Under the pieces are notes generated by a model. That model was not told where the DNA came from. It made no database searches and saw only the letters and a list, made by a program, of their open reading frames with translations. Both the position numbers and the translations under genes were made by a program. Source: Bacteroidia bacterium (GTDB lineage: Bacteria > Bacteroidota > Bacteroidia > Bacteroidales > UBA12481). Taken from it: a stretch of 5,377 nucleotides of DNA. Positions 329-5,377 of this stretch are shown one piece after another. The stretch is from NCBI GenBank assembly GCA_026391235.1, contig JAPLDV010000761.1, positions 1-5,377 of the forward strand. The letters are read 5' to 3'. Numbering within the stretch: position 1 is the first letter of the stretch; each line of letters starts with the position of its first letter.

Positions 329-667
329 TTAGTCCTCGCACCTCACATCATCAGCATCAAAGTTGCACCACGCCGCCTTTATCGTTGTCGGCTTGCAACA
401 GTCAATGATGGAAAGGTTGGTGCTGAAACCGAGGTTCCAGATAAAGCCATTCTTCGTACTCACTCCAAGGTCGGTACTGAGGTTCAGTCCGGTGGAGACC
501 AATACATGGGTCCGTATTGCCAGTTCCTGCCAGCCCAAACCGGTTCCGGAAGTGGAAGATGTGGTATCCTTTGCACCGTCTTTCACGGGATCATCTCCGT
601 AAACTATCCCGGTTACCAACAATCCTGTAATCAGGATGATAATTGTTATTTGATTTTTTGTTTTCAT
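329..667 (-). CDS. Small exported Cys-rich protein, CC-X9-C-X8-C tail (second copy)
   Basis: A 112-residue protein of no family I recognise. Residues 1-24 form a signal peptide: MKTK, a hydrophobic stretch from about 7 to 23 (ITIIILITGLLVTGIVY), and a likely cut near YG|DDP. The mature part starts with an acidic, Ser/Thr/Gly-rich linker (about 25-45), then a segment of alternating hydrophobic and polar residues (about 49-88) suggesting beta strands. The tail carries all four cysteines: C90, C91, C101 and C110. The same CC-X9-C arrangement occurs at residues 89, 90 and 100 of the small protein at 2505-2837. It is the last gene of the minus-strand operon, starting 14 nt after the propeller lipoprotein stop. 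The single extended frame, signal peptide and operon spacing support a real gene. Paired disulfides in the periplasm or outside the cell are inferred. Confidence 0.75.
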   Translation of the reverse strand: MKTKNQITIIILITGLLVTGIVYGDDPVKDGAKDTTSSTSGTGLGWQELAIRTHVLVSTGLNLSTDLGVSTKNGFIWNLGFSTNLSIIDCCKPTTIKAAWCNFDADDVRCED

Positions 668-681
668 TTTTCAATAAGTTT

Positions 682-1878
682 TTAGAAAGATTTTGTTAAC
701 CATTCCTGTTTAATTTTTGCAAACCACAGAACCGGACGGTCCTGTGTTAATGCCGACTCCACCAGGGAGTCTAATTCGTGATAATACTCCTGCGTTTTCG
801 GATCTTTTTTCCGACTAGCCATTGACTCCTTCAGAGCCAGCAGTAACGTCATGTCATACATGCCAATCAGCTCACCTTGATCACTTATCGCAATAGGATA
901 GAGTAAAGGAATCTTATCAGCCTTATTGGTTATTTGGCTCGAAAAGATGCCTTTTCTTGTTTTCAGATCAGCCATGGCAAATTCCAGATGGTGATCCAGA
1001 AATATTCTAAAAAGCCTGATCGAACCAAAGGCAAGCAATTGATCTTTTCCATAGACATATTTTCCGGGATCAGCCTCATTGTACCTTGGGGAATTAAAAC
1101 ATATCCTGCGCAAATCTTCAGGATATTTTAGTTTGCCCCAATCGAGGAAGACATCCGGTGAAACTTCTCCCTTCTTGCTTATTCTAAAGATCGTGTCGGA
1201 TTGGCTTAGGAGCAGTGCCCCTTTTTCAAATTCCTCCAGATGACGTTGATAGGTTAATGACCAATAAACGGAAGTGTCGCCTGAAACCAATGCCTGGCCC
1301 CTGCATTTCCCATCTTCGCCCAGAAGGAAAATCCCTGCACTAAGACTATCAACGCCGTCTCTGGAAGGAGTGGTATTATATCCTGCTATCAGATCTTCAC
1401 CCACCCCGGTCATATCCATAGCCGGCCAGCGTAATCTGAATTCACGGAGCATTTGCCCATCAAAATTGTATACCATAAGCTTAGCCGGCAAGAAGGATTG
1501 CAGCCAGAGTTCCCTTTTTGCCGGTTTCACCCACATGGCTTCCAATTCCTTATATTCACCCGGTCCCCGGCCAACACGCTGTATCCGGTATCTGAACTTG
1601 CCGGTGGTATCGAAACAAAAAACCGCTTCAAGCCTTTTGTCGAGCATAAAAATGTTGTCACCGGTAACTAACATTTTATCGATATCGATGAAGGCAGATT
1701 CCGGGTGATTCTGCAATGTGACATAATGCACCCCCCCGATGAATTGCTCCATATCGATGGCATCGGCGCGCTCAAATGGAACCCTGATAGCCGATTCGGT
1801 TCCGGTGCTCTTTGGCCGGCAAGCGGTAAACACGATCATGCAAACCGCCAGGCCGGTATAAATTTTAATCCTCATCAT
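682..1878 (-). CDS. 6-bladed beta-propeller lipoprotein
   Basis: A 398-residue protein with a lipoprotein signal: MMRIK, a hydrophobic core, then VFTAC with the likely lipidated cysteine at residue 20. It is therefore expected on the outer side of the inner membrane or at the outer membrane. From about residue 50 the sequence follows the Bacteroidota 6-bladed beta-propeller pattern: a strand with the LDKRLEAVFCFDTTGKF blade motif (about 79-95), then the family signature GRGPGEY (103-109), further blade strands, and a C-terminal TQDRPVLWFAKIK tail. The length is normal for the family. The role of these proteins is poorly known; many are encoded beside small exported peptides, and ligand or peptide binding is only an inference. 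The gene starts 6 nt after the thioredoxin-like gene; a second ATG directly follows the first, so the true start may be 1875. A small Cys-rich protein gene follows by 14 nt. Confidence 0.85.
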   Translation of the reverse strand: MMRIKIYTGLAVCMIVFTACRPKSTGTESAIRVPFERADAIDMEQFIGGVHYVTLQNHPESAFIDIDKMLVTGDNIFMLDKRLEAVFCFDTTGKFRYRIQRVGRGPGEYKELEAMWVKPAKRELWLQSFLPAKLMVYNFDGQMLREFRLRWPAMDMTGVGEDLIAGYNTTPSRDGVDSLSAGIFLLGEDGKCRGQALVSGDTSVYWSLTYQRHLEEFEKGALLLSQSDTIFRISKKGEVSPDVFLDWGKLKYPEDLRRICFNSPRYNEADPGKYVYGKDQLLAFGSIRLFRIFLDHHLEFAMADLKTRKGIFSSQITNKADKIPLLYPIAISDQGELIGMYDMTLLLALKESMASRKKDPKTQEYYHELDSLVESALTQDRPVLWFAKIKQEWLTKSF

Positions 1879-1884
1879 AATTAA

Positions 1885-2508
1885 TTAATTAAAGTATCTC
1901 TTTTCGATCAGGTTAAGGTACTCTTTTGTCTGGACTTCCAAAGAGGGGTAGGGTGTAAAAGCCAGGTTTGCCAAGTGTTCCGGCCCGGTTATGAAAAAGT
2001 AGGGGATCGCTAATGAATCCATTGGCAATTTCAGACCTTTATCCTGAATCTGCAAAAACTCAACTCCGGTCAGGATTTTCTGCCGGTGATTCCATTGTTC
2101 CCGCGTTGGCCCATTTACCGAGAACAGAATCAGGATGTTATTCCGGTAAACCTCCGGGATCTCATTCTTTACCGTGAATAGCAATTGGTCTACGCAAGTT
2201 GAGCAATGCCGGTCCGACAGAACGAGAACAAGCTTCTTCGACCGGCCGATAAAATTATTCAGATCCGCAACGCTGCCTTTTTCAGGCTGTACCAGTATTC
2301 CCTGAGGTAGGGGGTGATCATTGGATTTCATAGTGAACTCCCAGCCTCTGTTCATCAGGTACAACTCCCGGTTCGCCTGGATAAACCGGTTCCGGTTATC
2401 GTTCATCTTTTGACTGTATTCCTTGTTGTTTTGATCAAACCTCCAGATCCAGGCGAGGTTGATAATCAGGAGCACTAAGATTGAGAGCAGCCAGAATCTT
2501 GCTTTCAT
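1885..2508 (-). CDS. Membrane-anchored thioredoxin-fold (TlpA/redoxin-like) protein
   Basis: A 207-residue protein. Residues 5-22 (FWLLSILVLLIINLAWIW) form one membrane span after a short positive N-terminus, so the rest should be periplasmic. A charged helical linker (about 25-60, Asn/Arg/Gln-rich, possibly coiled coil) leads to a thioredoxin-like domain: strand KLVLVLS (92-98), then RHCSTCVDQLL with the CSTC redox pair at 102-105, and the expected cis-proline region at IPYFFITG (P169). This suggests a thiol-disulfide oxidoreductase or reductase; the direction is not decidable from sequence. I chose ATG 2508 over the upstream ATG at 2523. It overlaps the stop of the preceding Cys-rich protein as ATGA (2505-2508), a typical translational coupling, and it gives a normal membrane anchor. 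Co-expression with two four-cysteine exported proteins suggests they are its substrates, which is inference. Confidence 0.85.
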   Translation of the reverse strand: MKARFWLLSILVLLIINLAWIWRFDQNNKEYSQKMNDNRNRFIQANRELYLMNRGWEFTMKSNDHPLPQGILVQPEKGSVADLNNFIGRSKKLVLVLSDRHCSTCVDQLLFTVKNEIPEVYRNNILILFSVNGPTREQWNHRQKILTGVEFLQIQDKGLKLPMDSLAIPYFFITGPEHLANLAFTPYPSLEVQTKEYLNLIEKRYFN

Positions 2509-2837
2509 GATACAGCCCCGCAAATTTTCAATCCTTTACAACCATCCATGGCGCGATAGGTTTTTTTGCAGCAGGGGACAAAACTGTATTCGATCACTGT
2601 TATGCGGTAAATCGGGACACCAACCCAGCCAGCATACTCGTAGTGTTCCCCGGTTTTTACTTTTTCCTGCGAGGGCATGTACCCTACCAGAACACCATCG
2701 GGGGGGTCAGTTGTTCCGGTCATGTTTGTACTATTACCGTCTTCTGTTGCCACGGCACTTATCCCGATCAGATTGCCCATCAGGATGGCAAGAATGGCCA
2801 GCATAAATCCCAGCCGCTTCCACTTAAATGTTTTCAT
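2505..2837 (-). CDS. Small exported Cys-rich protein, CC-X9-C-X5-C tail (first copy)
   Basis: A 110-residue protein that I cannot place in a named family. It has a clear signal peptide: MKTFKWKR, a hydrophobic core at about 9-26, and a signal peptidase I-like AVA|TED site after residue 30. The mature part begins with a Thr/Asn/Gly/Pro linker (31-50) and continues with an aromatic, strand-like middle (YEYAGWVGVPIYRITVIEY, 66-84). It ends in a cysteine cluster C89, C90, C100, C106. The operon's last protein (329-667) has CC at 90-91 and Cys at 101, the same X9 spacing, though the remaining sequence is dissimilar. This is the first gene of the minus-strand operon and its stop overlaps the start of the thioredoxin-like gene. 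No NVEALA motif and no double-glycine leader is visible. A disulfide-bonded secreted peptide is inferred. Confidence 0.75.
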   Translation of the reverse strand: MKTFKWKRLGFMLAILAILMGNLIGISAVATEDGNSTNMTGTTDPPDGVLVGYMPSQEKVKTGEHYEYAGWVGVPIYRITVIEYSFVPCCKKTYRAMDGCKGLKICGAVS

Positions 2838-2850
2838 TATGTTTTTGATT

Positions 2851-2858
2851 TAAATTTG
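2851..2858 (+). promoter_or_regulatory. Possible Bacteroidota -7 promoter box for moeA-moaA-moaC
   Basis: TAAATTTG matches the Bacteroidota -7 consensus TAnnTTTG exactly. The expected TTTG-like -33 element about 20 nt upstream is poor (only an AATGTTTT stretch near 2827-2834), so the call is tentative. Transcription would begin around 2865, leaving a leader of about 90-105 nt. Confidence 0.35.
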
Positions 2859-2897
2859 AATACACCATATATAGATGGCAATCATGGACTCCAGTGG

Positions 2898-2953: not shown

Positions 2954-4162
2954 ATGCCTAATTCTTATGTTATGATTACTTTCGAGGAAGCTCTTAAAAT
3001 ATCATTAGATCAGGCTTTTACATTCGGAGTTGAATCGATTTCCTTTGAAGAAGCTGCAGGACGGGTACTCGCAGAAATCATAATATCTGATATGGATATT
3101 CCTCCTTTTGATAAAAGCGCAATGGATGGATATGCCTGTCGCCGGCAGGATCTTGCACATACTATGGAGGTTATTGAGGTTATCCGTGCAGGTATACCGC
3201 CGGAAAAGTCAATCAGCGAAGGAACCTGTTCCCAAATCATGACCGGTGCAATTATTCCCGTTGGTGCAGATACCGTCGTTAAGGTTGAGGATTGCATCAA
3301 AATAGAGGCTGATGCACCCGAACCAAACGGAATCCGGTTTGTTGGAGAAAAAACTGCCGCAAATATTTGTTATCGCGGCGAGGATCTGAAAGCAGGTGAG
3401 GTGGTTCTAGAGGCAGGTACCCTGCTGTATACCCGCCATGTGCCGATCCTGGCTACAGTGGGCAGGGTTTTTATTAATGTGTTCCGGATGCCTTCAATCG
3501 GGGTGCTTTCAACCGGCACAGAACTCGTTGAGCCTGGCGAAACTCCGGGCGTATCACAGATCAGGAATACCAATGCATATCAGATTATTGCCCAGTTGGC
3601 GAAAATGGGAATCGATGCTGACTATTACGGAATAGCAGGCGACAATGAGGCTGTCACCCGCAGCATGATCTCGGAGGCACTCATAAACAATGATATACTA
3701 GTCCTTAGCGGCGGTATCTCGATGGGTGAATTCGATTTTGTACCCGCAGTCCTGCAAAGTATTGGTATCGATGTTGCTTACAAACAGGTTGCTATACAGC
3801 CCGGTAAACCTACTCTCTTCGGCACAGGGCAAAATAAGTTTGTTTTTGGCTTGCCTGGCAACCCGGTCTCTTCCTATTTTATACTGGAACTTCTGGTTAA
3901 GCCCTTTATATATAAGTGCATGGGTCACAACTGGAATCCCCCGGTCTTCCGGTTGAGGGCAGCAAAGCGTATGACCAGGAAAAATAATAATCGTCTGGCC
4001 TGGATGCCAGTCAGGATCGATCAGGAAGGATTGGTTCACCAGATCGAATACCACGGATCGGCACATATATTTTCACTCCGGGATGCAGATGGAATCATAC
4101 CGGTACCAATCGGAAAAGCTATAATTGAAGAAGGGGAATTTGTGGATGTCCGACCGCTTTGA
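2954..4162 (+). CDS. moeA: Molybdopterin molybdenumtransferase MoeA
   Basis: MoeA inserts molybdate into adenylated molybdopterin, the last step to active molybdenum cofactor, in the cytoplasm. From the ATG chosen here (402 aa; E. coli MoeA is 411) the family landmarks appear in order: PPFDKSAMDGYA (50-61), IMTGA (95-99), YRGEDLKAG (140-148), STGTEL (186-191), GDN (229-231), LSGGISMGEFDF (251-262), AIQPGKPTLFG (280-290) and FGLPGNPVSSY (298-308), then the C-terminal beta domain. The start is uncertain: ATG 2921 and GTG 2894 add charged or Phe-rich residues not expected in the family, while ATG 2972 (MITFEEAL) is the shortest form compatible with the family. I prefer 2954 because an A-rich stretch lies just upstream, as is usual for Bacteroidota starts. 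In the KPGKP region, Q278 and Q282 stand where E. coli MoeA has lysines. The gene overlaps moaA by 17 nt and heads the operon. Confidence 0.93.
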   Translation: MPNSYVMITFEEALKISLDQAFTFGVESISFEEAAGRVLAEIIISDMDIPPFDKSAMDGYACRRQDLAHTMEVIEVIRAGIPPEKSISEGTCSQIMTGAIIPVGADTVVKVEDCIKIEADAPEPNGIRFVGEKTAANICYRGEDLKAGEVVLEAGTLLYTRHVPILATVGRVFINVFRMPSIGVLSTGTELVEPGETPGVSQIRNTNAYQIIAQLAKMGIDADYYGIAGDNEAVTRSMISEALINNDILVLSGGISMGEFDFVPAVLQSIGIDVAYKQVAIQPGKPTLFGTGQNKFVFGLPGNPVSSYFILELLVKPFIYKCMGHNWNPPVFRLRAAKRMTRKNNNRLAWMPVRIDQEGLVHQIEYHGSAHIFSLRDADGIIPVPIGKAIIEEGEFVDVRPL

Positions 4163-4946
4163 TCGAAATATCAATTACTTAAGGATATCGGTTACCGACC
4201 GGTGTAATCTCCGCTGTACTTATTGCATGCCGGCTGAAGGGGTGCGACTCATTCGCCATGAGGATATCTTACGTTACGATGAGATCGTCGAAGTGGTAAA
4301 AATTGCCGTGGATTTCGGTATTGCAAAGGTCCGCATTACAGGAGGTGAACCGCTCGTCAGGAAAGGTGTGGTCAGTTTGATTGAAATGATTGCAGCCATT
4401 CCTGAGATCCGCGATCTTTCAATGACTACAAATGGTATTCTCCTGGAAAAATATGCCATCGAACTTAAGTCTGCCGGATTGCAGCGCGTTAATATCAGCC
4501 TTGATACCATGAATCCGCTTCGTTATCAGGAGATTACCAGATTTGGAGATATAAATCATGTTATCAGGGGAATAGATGCGGCCATTGCCGCCGGATTGGC
4601 ACCGGTTAAAATAAACTGTGTGATCAGGAATACTCCGGATGAGCCAGATTCCCGGATGGTTAGGGAATATTGCATTAGAAAGGGGTTGGAAGTAAGGTAT
4701 ATTCATGAAATGGACCTGGATAGAGGCTATTTCCGTGGGGTGATTGGCGGTGATGGCGGGAACTGTTCTTCCTGCAACCGGCTCCGGCTAACCAGTAACG
4801 GCATGATCAGACCCTGCCTGTTCAGCAACTCAGGCTTTTCGGTCCGGGAACTGGGCCCCCGGGCAGCCATAGAACGTGCCCTTGATAATAAGCCCGAATG
4901 CGGTAGTTTCAATACAACCGGAGAATTCTATAACTTAGGGGGATAA
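4146..4946 (+). CDS. moaA: GTP 3',8-cyclase MoaA, short form
   Basis: A radical SAM enzyme that converts GTP to (8S)-3',8-cyclo-7,8-dihydroguanosine triphosphate, the first step of molybdenum cofactor synthesis; its product is used by MoaC. Visible motifs: the N-terminal SAM-cluster site C20-X3-C24-X2-C27 (DRCNLRCTYC), KVRITGGEP (61-69), NISLDT (116-121), VRYIHEMD (183-190, with the conserved Arg), the second cluster site C207-X2-C210-X13-C224 with CNRLRLTSNG, and the C-terminal Gly-Gly (265-266) needed for catalysis in studied MoaA. Length is 266 against about 320-340 usually. The missing part is about 50 residues between VRYIHEMD and the second cluster site; the rest is intact, so I expect an active enzyme. 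ATG 4146 lies inside the end of moeA (17-nt overlap, GAAGAAGGGG upstream). TTG 4125 would add seven residues and is less likely. Confidence 0.92.
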   Translation: MSDRFDRNINYLRISVTDRCNLRCTYCMPAEGVRLIRHEDILRYDEIVEVVKIAVDFGIAKVRITGGEPLVRKGVVSLIEMIAAIPEIRDLSMTTNGILLEKYAIELKSAGLQRVNISLDTMNPLRYQEITRFGDINHVIRGIDAAIAAGLAPVKINCVIRNTPDEPDSRMVREYCIRKGLEVRYIHEMDLDRGYFRGVIGGDGGNCSSCNRLRLTSNGMIRPCLFSNSGFSVRELGPRAAIERALDNKPECGSFNTTGEFYNLGG

Positions 4947-4957
4947 TGAAATATTAT

Positions 4958-4979
4958 GTAGGGACGCATATTTGCGTCC
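4958..4979 (+). repeat. GTAG-headed palindrome (REP-like) after moaA
   Basis: GTAGG is followed by arms GGACGCA (4962-4968) and TGCGTCC (4973-4979) around a TATT loop. The GTAGGG head is shared with both units of the 231-302 element, but the palindrome differs, so it looks like another family of the same kind of RAYT-type repeat. It sits 12 nt after the moaA stop inside the mo operon and, lacking a T-run, probably marks or stabilises mRNA rather than ending it. Confidence 0.6.
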
Positions 4980-4981
4980 GC

Positions 4982-5012
4982 AAGGCTTAAGGCTCAAGGC
5001 TTAAGGCTTAAG
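4982..5012. repeat. 7-bp tandem repeat, four copies
   Basis: Four consecutive units read AAGGCTT, AAGGCTC, AAGGCTT, AAGGCTT, followed by a partial AAG. One base differs among the four. The array starts 3 nt after the REP-like palindrome. Copy number could vary between strains; it lies outside any gene, 52 nt upstream of the moaC start. Confidence 0.8.
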
Positions 5013-5063: not shown

Positions 5064-5377
5064 ATGAACCATATCAGCCACAAAGACTTCACTAACCCCG
5101 GGCTTCAGCCCGGAGGTCATTCTCCAGATGATCCTCAGCACCAGGATCTTCCATCTCCCAGTCTTCCATCTCCCAGTCTTCTTTCTCATCTGGATTCCGA
5201 AGGACGTGCCCGCATGGTCGATGTGGGCTCAAAGCCCGATCAGCTCCGGATGGCTAAAGCTGAGGGCCGGATCATCCTTCAGCCTGATACCATTCTTTTG
5301 ATCCGCGAAAATCTCGTGAAAAAGGGCGATGTTCTAACCGTAGCCGAGATTGCGGGAATCCAGGCAGCAAAAAGCAC
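5064..5377 (+). CDS. moaC: Cyclic pyranopterin monophosphate synthase MoaC, partial at 3' end, with N-terminal extension
   Basis: MoaC turns the MoaA product into cyclic pyranopterin monophosphate. From residue 40 the sequence follows the family start: LSHLDSEGRARMVDVGSK, aligned with LTHINAAGEAHMVDVSAK of E. coli MoaC, then KKGDVLTVAEIAGIQAAKS at 86-104, where the window ends. About 57 further residues are expected, including catalytic Asp/Lys. Before residue 40 lies an extension of about 36 residues that is Pro, Ser, His and Asp rich and not part of the family; it is encoded by a GC hairpin and a 15-bp tandem repeat. The start must be ATG 5064: an in-frame TAG stands at 5055-5057, and the next in-frame ATG (5214) would remove conserved residues. 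No clear ribosome site is present. It is third in the operon, 117 nt after moaA. Confidence 0.88.
   Translation, partial: MNHISHKDFTNPGLQPGGHSPDDPQHQDLPSPSLPSPSLLSHLDSEGRARMVDVGSKPDQLRMAKAEGRIILQPDTILLIRENLVKKGDVLTVAEIAGIQAAKS
5095..5117. repeat. GC-rich hairpin repeat inside moaC start region
   Basis: Arms CCGGGCT (5098-5104) and AGCCCGG (5107-5113) surround TC; the stem extends by ACC/GGT if A5114 is bulged out. The CCCGGGCTTCAGCCCGG type of palindrome is a typical intergenic repeat form, but here it is translated as NPGLQPGG (residues 11-18 of the predicted MoaC). Confidence 0.6.
5147..5176. repeat. 15-bp tandem repeat, two full copies, in frame in moaC
   Basis: TCTTCCATCTCCCAG occurs twice without a gap (5147-5161 and 5162-5176), followed by a partial TCTTC. 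Because the unit is five codons it keeps frame and encodes the repeated PSPSL of the predicted MoaC extension. It looks like a non-coding mini-satellite taken into the reading frame. Confidence 0.8.

Follow-up and report, generated by a model that had tools for sequence, protein, structure and literature searches.

A candidate Bacteroidales version of a wider Bacteroidota gene cassette: two exported cysteine-tail proteins with a thioredoxin-like protein and a propeller lipoprotein

Introduction

In methylamine dehydrogenase, MauD and MauE mature MauA, a protein with twelve cysteines that is accompanied by the propeller MauB. Here we describe an operon with similar parts in a 5,377-nucleotide stretch of DNA from a Bacteroidia bacterium (Bacteroidales, UBA12481; GenBank assembly GCA_026391235.1, contig JAPLDV010000761.1), referred to below as the window. 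The first and last genes of this operon encode exported proteins with four-cysteine tails, P1 and P4, and the middle genes encode a thioredoxin-like protein and a six-bladed propeller lipoprotein. The likeness to methylamine dehydrogenase maturation lies in the thioredoxin-like protein, the propeller and the small exported cysteine-rich protein, together with the presence of MauE in some sister cassettes. In contrast to that system, the window-type operon has no MauE, fewer cysteines, a different propeller family and no known enzyme. The ResA/TlpA-type oxidoreductases likewise combine an N-terminal hydrophobic anchor with a thioredoxin-type domain carrying a CxxC motif, but the window protein, which has peptides and a propeller as neighbours, matches none of the Pfam families at E up to 1. 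A third relevant family, NVEALA (PF14055), consists of small exported cysteine proteins that we find beside PF17170 propellers and a thioredoxin-like partner. This neighbourhood lies outside the Pfam definition, and partners of both kinds are present in the window. P1 and P4 differ from NVEALA proteins in giving no PF14055 match (at E up to 1, neither matches any Pfam family) and in lacking the NVEALA motif, and the NVEALA partner is a lipoprotein in which the thioredoxin part is fused to DUF1573.

The nearest published idea that we found is the decRiPPter study (PMC7794033), the available excerpts of which describe Streptomyces candidate clusters for ribosomally synthesized and post-translationally modified peptides (RiPPs), with precursors of at least eight cysteines beside mauE and mauD homologues that are suggested to be modifiers. 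The short cysteine-rich precursor and its Mau neighbours resemble the present arrangement, whereas the phylum and the cysteine number differ and the excerpts do not mention a propeller. Domains like those of the two middle proteins also come together in NHLRC2, in which, according to the excerpted text (PMC6107167), a thioredoxin-like domain and a six-bladed NHL propeller form one cleft with a cysteine motif near the domain interface. Unlike the window proteins, NHLRC2 is a single fused protein with a CCINC motif and no exported peptide, and the same excerpts report no conserved gene neighbours in seven bacterial genomes. In the excerpted part of PMC10434189, a 6-bladed propeller and a DUF1573 protein are merely listed among iron-regulated genes. 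The words NVEALA and DUF5128 were not found in the open-access literature searched, nor was a direct description of the module, and the wider cassette is apparently undescribed there. We propose that Bacteroidota have a cassette for exported disulfide-bonded miniproteins, of which the operon is the form found in one lineage. The thioredoxin-like protein and the propeller would act on these miniproteins, and we give this reading a probability of about 0.55. Membership of the operon in the module is well supported, and its biochemical role is what we infer. Under this proposal, PF17170/DUF5128, NVEALA, DUF1573 and the still nameless P1 and P4, all families whose function is unknown, become parts of one testable module.

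Results and discussion

The four genes, all on the minus strand, lie in tandem between 2837 and 329 in the order P1, thioredoxin-like protein, propeller lipoprotein and P4 (Table 1). The P1 and thioredoxin-like genes overlap by 4 nucleotides, and the next two gaps are 6 and 14 nucleotides. A pattern-based scan for P1 in a collection of genome contigs yielded six loci (L001-L006, genomes G001-G006), and four further loci of the same GTDB family were fetched (L049-L052), of which three stop at a contig edge and L051 is complete. The named relatives are metagenome-assembled genomes of uncultured Bacteroidetes, Bacteroidales and Porphyromonadaceae. The initial annotation had asked whether the cysteine-tail proteins recur beside thioredoxin-like and propeller genes. 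P1 and P4 do occur with both, in the same gene order, at all seven loci that are uncut by a contig end (L001-L006 and L051), so that the window and its seven complete relatives each hold a small exported cysteine protein, a CxxC thioredoxin-like protein and a PF17170 propeller on one strand. P1 is present in 10 of the 12 genomes of the GTDB family, G001-G006 among them. Across the phylum, with the best 12 candidates per genome scored, only 1 of 395 genomes has it, namely G001 itself.

The first annotation is confirmed for the open reading frames (ORFs), for their lengths and strand, and for each of the eight cysteine positions. In the window proteins, no cysteine lies outside the tails, which read C89-C90-X9-C100-X5-C106 in P1 and C90-C91-X9-C101-X8-C110 in P4. 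Counting the window proteins, the database sequences number 41 for P1 and 8 for P4, and the alignments used for conservation have 41 and 13 rows. Every row keeps all four tail cysteines, and no homologue without them was found among these 41 P1 and 13 P4 sequences, in agreement with the initial annotation. This constancy holds in P1 family members that are 47-80% identical to the window protein and extends to L051, a distant locus with the tails CCKFTGSMMDGC and CCKFTGDVNSWC. When the regions after the signal peptide were shuffled 200,000 times, CC-X9-C arose in both proteins at a frequency of 1e-5. With any gap length n accepted, provided that both proteins had the same CC-Xn-C, the frequency was 2.2e-4. 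Both figures are post hoc. The tail pattern that P1 and P4 share is not due to chance.

The middle proteins had been called thioredoxin-like and a propeller lipoprotein, and both assignments hold. The thioredoxin-like protein has an N-terminal hydrophobic anchor and the motif HCSTC, the CxxC of which is invariant in all 18 aligned family members, and the family profile matches ResA structures at E 2.6e-5 over profile positions 70-201. Among the four operon proteins, the propeller is the only one with a Pfam match at E up to 1 (PF17170, E 8.6e-21, 74.9 bits against a cut-off of 22.9), and the search of the thioredoxin-like protein against NCBIfam returned only a chance-level match to another family. 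Cys20 of the propeller, in a lipobox recognised by eye, is invariant in 7/7 sequences.

The evidence for a wider cassette comes in the first place from the other PF17170 propellers of G001-G006, which hold 7 to 33 matches each. We fetched 80 regions, leaving aside the operon copies of G002-G006 and five other matches (G002:C154, G004:C88, G004:C180, G005:C60 and G005:C73), and dropped L064, the G001 operon, from the peptide count, giving 79 regions. A hidden Markov model (HMM) grown from the thioredoxin-like family of the window matched 42 ORFs in 137 sequences, copies included. Peptides were counted if they had a signal-peptide-like start, 50-130 amino acids and at least four cysteines after the start, lay on the same strand within 3 kb of the propeller or thioredoxin gene, and overlapped little with long ORFs. 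By this filter a small exported cysteine peptide is present in 13 of the 14 regions with a thioredoxin-like neighbour and in 2 of the 65 without one (Fisher p 5.4e-12). One of the latter two, L098, looks spurious by eye, being 50 amino acids long and lying 1.6 kb away from its propeller. In a tree of 118 propellers, a quick FastTree of very divergent sequences, the thioredoxin label changes 20 times, against a mean of 26.7 and a minimum of 21 in 500 shuffles. The pairing is therefore not the heirloom of a single clade and implies many origins or losses, and since there are fewer changes than in any shuffle, the regions are not fully independent.

The same association is seen across the phylum. 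A broad thioredoxin profile (A6) found matches in at least 19 of 395 genomes, G001 included, with the best 7 candidates per genome scored, while a narrow profile (A3) found 1 in 198. Nineteen regions were taken from 18 genomes other than G001. A propeller stands beside the thioredoxin match in 11 of them (that of L169 at E 1e-4, not at 1e-5), and 10 of these 11 also hold a small exported peptide, the sole exception being L165. Of the eight regions without a propeller, seven carry WCxPC, as ordinary TlpA-type proteins do, and one of the eight passes the peptide filter. The trio of peptide, thioredoxin-like protein and propeller thus recurs at non-syntenic loci across Bacteroidota.

It is this gene trio, and not CC-X9-C, that is the signature of the wider class. 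Among 29 hand-picked cassette peptides (those of L164 and a second L168 candidate not among them), we rejected CC-X9-C as a hallmark, as CC occurs in 9 of the 29, with 13.1 expected from shuffles. The looser CC-X8-10-C was rejected likewise, with 4 of 29 against 3.1 expected (p 0.39). A tail frame close to those of P1 (CC, 9, 5) and P4 (CC, 9, 8), namely CC, 7-10, 5-8, does occur in 4 of the 24 other four-cysteine cassette peptides, at the three loci L167, L184 (twins) and L187. Its shuffle mean is 0.05 and none of 5,000 shuffles reaches 4, for ranges that were set after these three loci had been seen. The framework 13-15, 6, 4 is common to L086 and L162 and was found after looking. These data bear on a reading in which P1 and P4, instead of being folding clients of the thioredoxin-like protein, would cooperate with it as redox carriers or thiol sensors. 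That one operon encodes both vicinal CC pairs and a CxxC protein might suggest this. The 29 sister peptides carry 4-8 cysteines in many frameworks, which is a better fit to folded disulfide proteins than to one redox centre, and we consider a carrier or sensor role very unlikely.

The link to NVEALA arose at L164, where the peptide at 9737-9967 is a PF14055 protein (E 6.8e-13). It has only two cysteines, and the peptide count used another ORF there, with six. Because this peptide is an NVEALA protein, we examined 20 NVEALA regions in the family of that genome, drawn from 14 of the 16 genomes with matches. A propeller was found by HMM in 17 of the 20, and a thioredoxin-DUF1573 lipoprotein in 14, over nearly full length in 8 and in part in 6, by a profile built from nine proteins of which eight are inside the counted regions. 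The thioredoxin part of these lipoproteins aligns to the window family with an hhalign probability of 80 (E 1.5e-5). NVEALA-type peptides also have tail-only frames reminiscent of P1 and P4, CC-X8-C-X6-C in L184 and CC-X7-C-X5-C in L187. The NVEALA model exceeds its cut-off in none of the six genomes G001-G006 and in none of 198 phylum genomes (two matches at E 0.001). When the thioredoxin-DUF1573 search was extended to the 80 PF17170 regions from G001-G006 and to the eight regions lacking a propeller, only the DUF1573 protein of L086 was found. Given that NVEALA matches occur in 16 of the 40 genomes of the sampled family, with up to 13 in one genome, the module may shape secretion or display. 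A bolder and more tentative extension is that PF17170 propellers, NVEALA-type peptides, ResA/MauD-like or thioredoxin-DUF1573 proteins, MauE, dedicated signal peptidases and RND pumps form one phylum-wide Bacteroidota secretion system, by which diverse disulfide-locked peptides would be made in the periplasm and then released or displayed, with P1 and P4 as the fixed pair of one Bacteroidales family. We regard this as possible and rather doubtful.

Sister cassettes carry additional genes that bear on what the module does. MauE-like genes are found in five regions (L162, L167, L168, L170 and L177), and the two tested against Pfam match PF07291 at E 3e-25 and 1e-21. This raises the question of a methylamine-dehydrogenase-like assembly, in which the cysteine-tail protein would be a small subunit docking on the propeller and matured by the thioredoxin-like protein, with MauE elsewhere. 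Both systems have a thioredoxin-like protein, a propeller and a cysteine-rich exported protein, and the tryptophans W46 and W100 of P4 and W71 of P1 are invariant. However, a profile from the five sister proteins gave no MauE match in the window, L001-L006 or L049-L052, the tails have four cysteines where MauA has twelve, no enzyme signature was seen, the propellers are PF17170 and some loci encode several different peptides. Such an assembly seems quite unlikely.

Further extras are DUF1573 at L086, signal peptidase S26 at L164 and L182, and RND transporters. The last occur in 8 of the 43 regions that hold a cassette or NVEALA and in 1 of 71 others (p 0.0017, the regions not being fully independent; L064, L106, L086 and L098 were left out of the comparison). 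With only 8 of 43 regions, RND was rejected as a universal cassette partner. These genes could instead point to secreted bioactive peptides of bacteriocin or signal type. These would be cleaved, oxidised and then exported by pumps, and the propeller would serve as an immunity or receptor protein. Such a role would suit L171, L162 and L184, where two or three peptides combine similar leaders with divergent cores, and the excerpts on Streptomyces place MauE and MauD beside precursors with at least eight cysteines in candidate RiPP clusters (PMC7794033). P1 and P4, on the other hand, are well conserved within their family and not hypervariable, and the window operon contains no signal peptidase or peptide exporter. 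Reading the ORFs of the window and L001-L006 by eye, we recognised no RiPP modifying enzyme or exporter save RND/adaptor genes at L001-L005, which are convergent and probably reflect one event. We judge bioactive peptides an unlikely identity for P1 and P4.

The initial annotation had also regarded P1 and P4 as a diverged pair under structural constraint with little sequence similarity. The low similarity is confirmed (hhalign probability 1.3%), and the pair shares its operon, architecture, cysteine framework and predicted element order. In both, the best-conserved parts are the end of the signal peptide, judged by eye (0.86 in P1, 0.93 in P4), and the cysteine tail (0.86 and 0.79), while the linker after the signal peptide is poorly conserved (0.53 in each). 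The first ten residues of P4 also score 0.79, equal to its tail, and the signal peptide of the propeller, for comparison, scores 0.60 and 0.44 in 7 rows only. AlphaFold2 predicts the same order of elements for both proteins, namely a helix, a short strand, two long strands and a short strand near the third cysteine, giving a layout of signal-peptide-like start, variable linker, long beta-hairpin and four-cysteine tail. At the level of these models, the structure comparison proposed with the annotation gave no sign of unrelated folds. The predicted local distance difference test (pLDDT) score is 77 for P1 and, in five P4 models, 65 at best and 42 at worst. We rejected the full-length profile comparison (p 0.0014) as sequence proof of paralogy, since it includes the signal peptides and the mature part fails. 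Because the mature-part comparison is not significant, common descent is likely but unproven, and the case for it, which draws on the cysteine framework, the shared pattern of conservation and models whose confidence is low to medium, is not fully supported. P1 and P4 probably arose by duplication and then diverged, since several sister cassettes carry two or three peptides per locus. A reading in which the likeness is convergence and the neighbourhood merely conserved synteny would suit two observations: the mature profiles are not significantly alike, and the 20-kb surroundings of L001-L004 are largely syntenic too. Recurrence of the trio at non-syntenic loci, together with the shared conservation profile and element order, speaks against this reading, which we consider very unlikely.

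In the cassette reading that we prefer, P1 and P4 would leave the cytoplasm via Sec and be cleaved at the conserved end of the signal peptide, which reads GNLIGISALA in P1 and VTGIVYGDDP in P4. The thioredoxin-like protein, as a dedicated enzyme of ResA/MauD-like type, would then form, isomerise or reduce the tail disulfides in the periplasm, and the propeller would bind the folded proteins and perhaps display them or pass them on. The idea in the initial annotation, a cassette for exporting, folding or displaying peptides with disulfide bonds, stands as the best reading given the wider family, with its biochemical part still inferred. Several points weigh against it. The actions of the thioredoxin-like protein and propeller on P1 and P4 are proposed from sequence data, and no exporter lies inside the operon. 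Two of the 65 propeller regions without a thioredoxin-like neighbour pass the peptide filter and one of the 14 with it does not, the signal-peptide rule of that filter is a crude one of our own, and Fisher's test assumes independent loci, which in view of the partial dependence in the tree they are not entirely. In addition, the P4 models are of low confidence (65 down to 42), neither P1 nor P4 models match a solved PDB fold at E 0.001 or better, and the similarity between the profiles of mature P1 and mature P4 falls short of significance, with 31 of 300 column shuffles scoring as high.

Other features of the sister loci and the window

Several sister loci have peculiarities of their own. At L171, L167, L170, L177 and L168, a shared long leader of the GDISLLGxxxxLFxxTYA type precedes quite different cysteine-rich cores. 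L165 (G292:C39:236150-236596) has a thioredoxin-like frame with two in-frame TAG codons near the propeller, which may be decayed or recoded. Twin NVEALA-type peptides, a propeller, an HlyD/CusB-type adaptor and an RND transporter stand in a row on one strand at L184:1-5706. Signal peptidase I (S26) genes lie near NVEALA cassettes at L164:4293-5180 and L182:7830-8732, and since NVEALA ends in an A-x-A-like site, dedicated cleavage is conceivable. A transglutaminase-like lipoprotein (Transglut_core, E 5.7e-5) adjoins the NVEALA cassette at L183:154-2112, and proteins resembling it are present in other NVEALA regions. At L188:259-1407 a DUF4221 lipoprotein (E 8.6e-47) adjoins an NVEALA peptide where PF17170 was not found, and is a possible stand-in for the propeller.

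Table 1. Features of the window, with positions, strand and supporting evidence.
Feature	Position	Strand	Evidence
P1, 110-aa exported protein, tail CC-X9-C-X5-C	2505..2837	-	ORF; 41 database sequences including itself; AlphaFold2 pLDDT 77
P1 cysteine tail, codons 89-106	2520..2573	-	C89, C90, C100 and C106 invariant, 41/41
Membrane-anchored thioredoxin-like protein (ResA/TlpA-like), 207 aa	1885..2508	-	CxxC invariant, 18/18; ResA profile match
CxxC motif C102-S-T-C105	2194..2205	-	Family alignments
Six-bladed beta-propeller lipoprotein, 398 aa, PF17170 (DUF5128), lipobox Cys20	682..1878	-	Pfam; lipobox by eye
P4, 112-aa exported protein, tail CC-X9-C-X8-C	329..667	-	ORF; homologues; AlphaFold2 pLDDT 65
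P4 cysteine tail, codons 90-110	338..400	-	C90, C91, C101 and C110 invariant, 13/13
56-bp gap from operon to first listed start of divergent moeA-like gene	2838..2893	.	ORF coordinates
G+C-rich inverted repeats I1-I3, directly downstream of P4	224..303	.	Repeat search

In the window, P1 is adjoined by a divergent moeA/moaA-like pair, named by eye, which is also found there in L001-L005 and L049-L052. A link to the molybdenum cofactor was set aside, as no such pair flanks the operon in L006. The MoaA-like radical SAM protein (4125-4946) has only about 273 amino acids, fewer than MoaA, and its relatives are similarly short. The intergenic gaps at 224-303 and 4963-5008 contain short palindromic and tandem repeats that resemble repetitive extragenic palindromes (REP) or terminators. 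The repeat search found CAAGGCTTAAGGCT twice among them, alongside I1-I3, and a palindrome, GGACGCATATTTGCGTCC, was seen by eye near 4963. Finally, a moaC-like gene at 5064-5375, named by eye, has a low-complexity N-terminal extension (LPSPSLPSPSLL) encoded by a 15-nucleotide tandem repeat, and its relative at L049 carries a different repeat-like extension.

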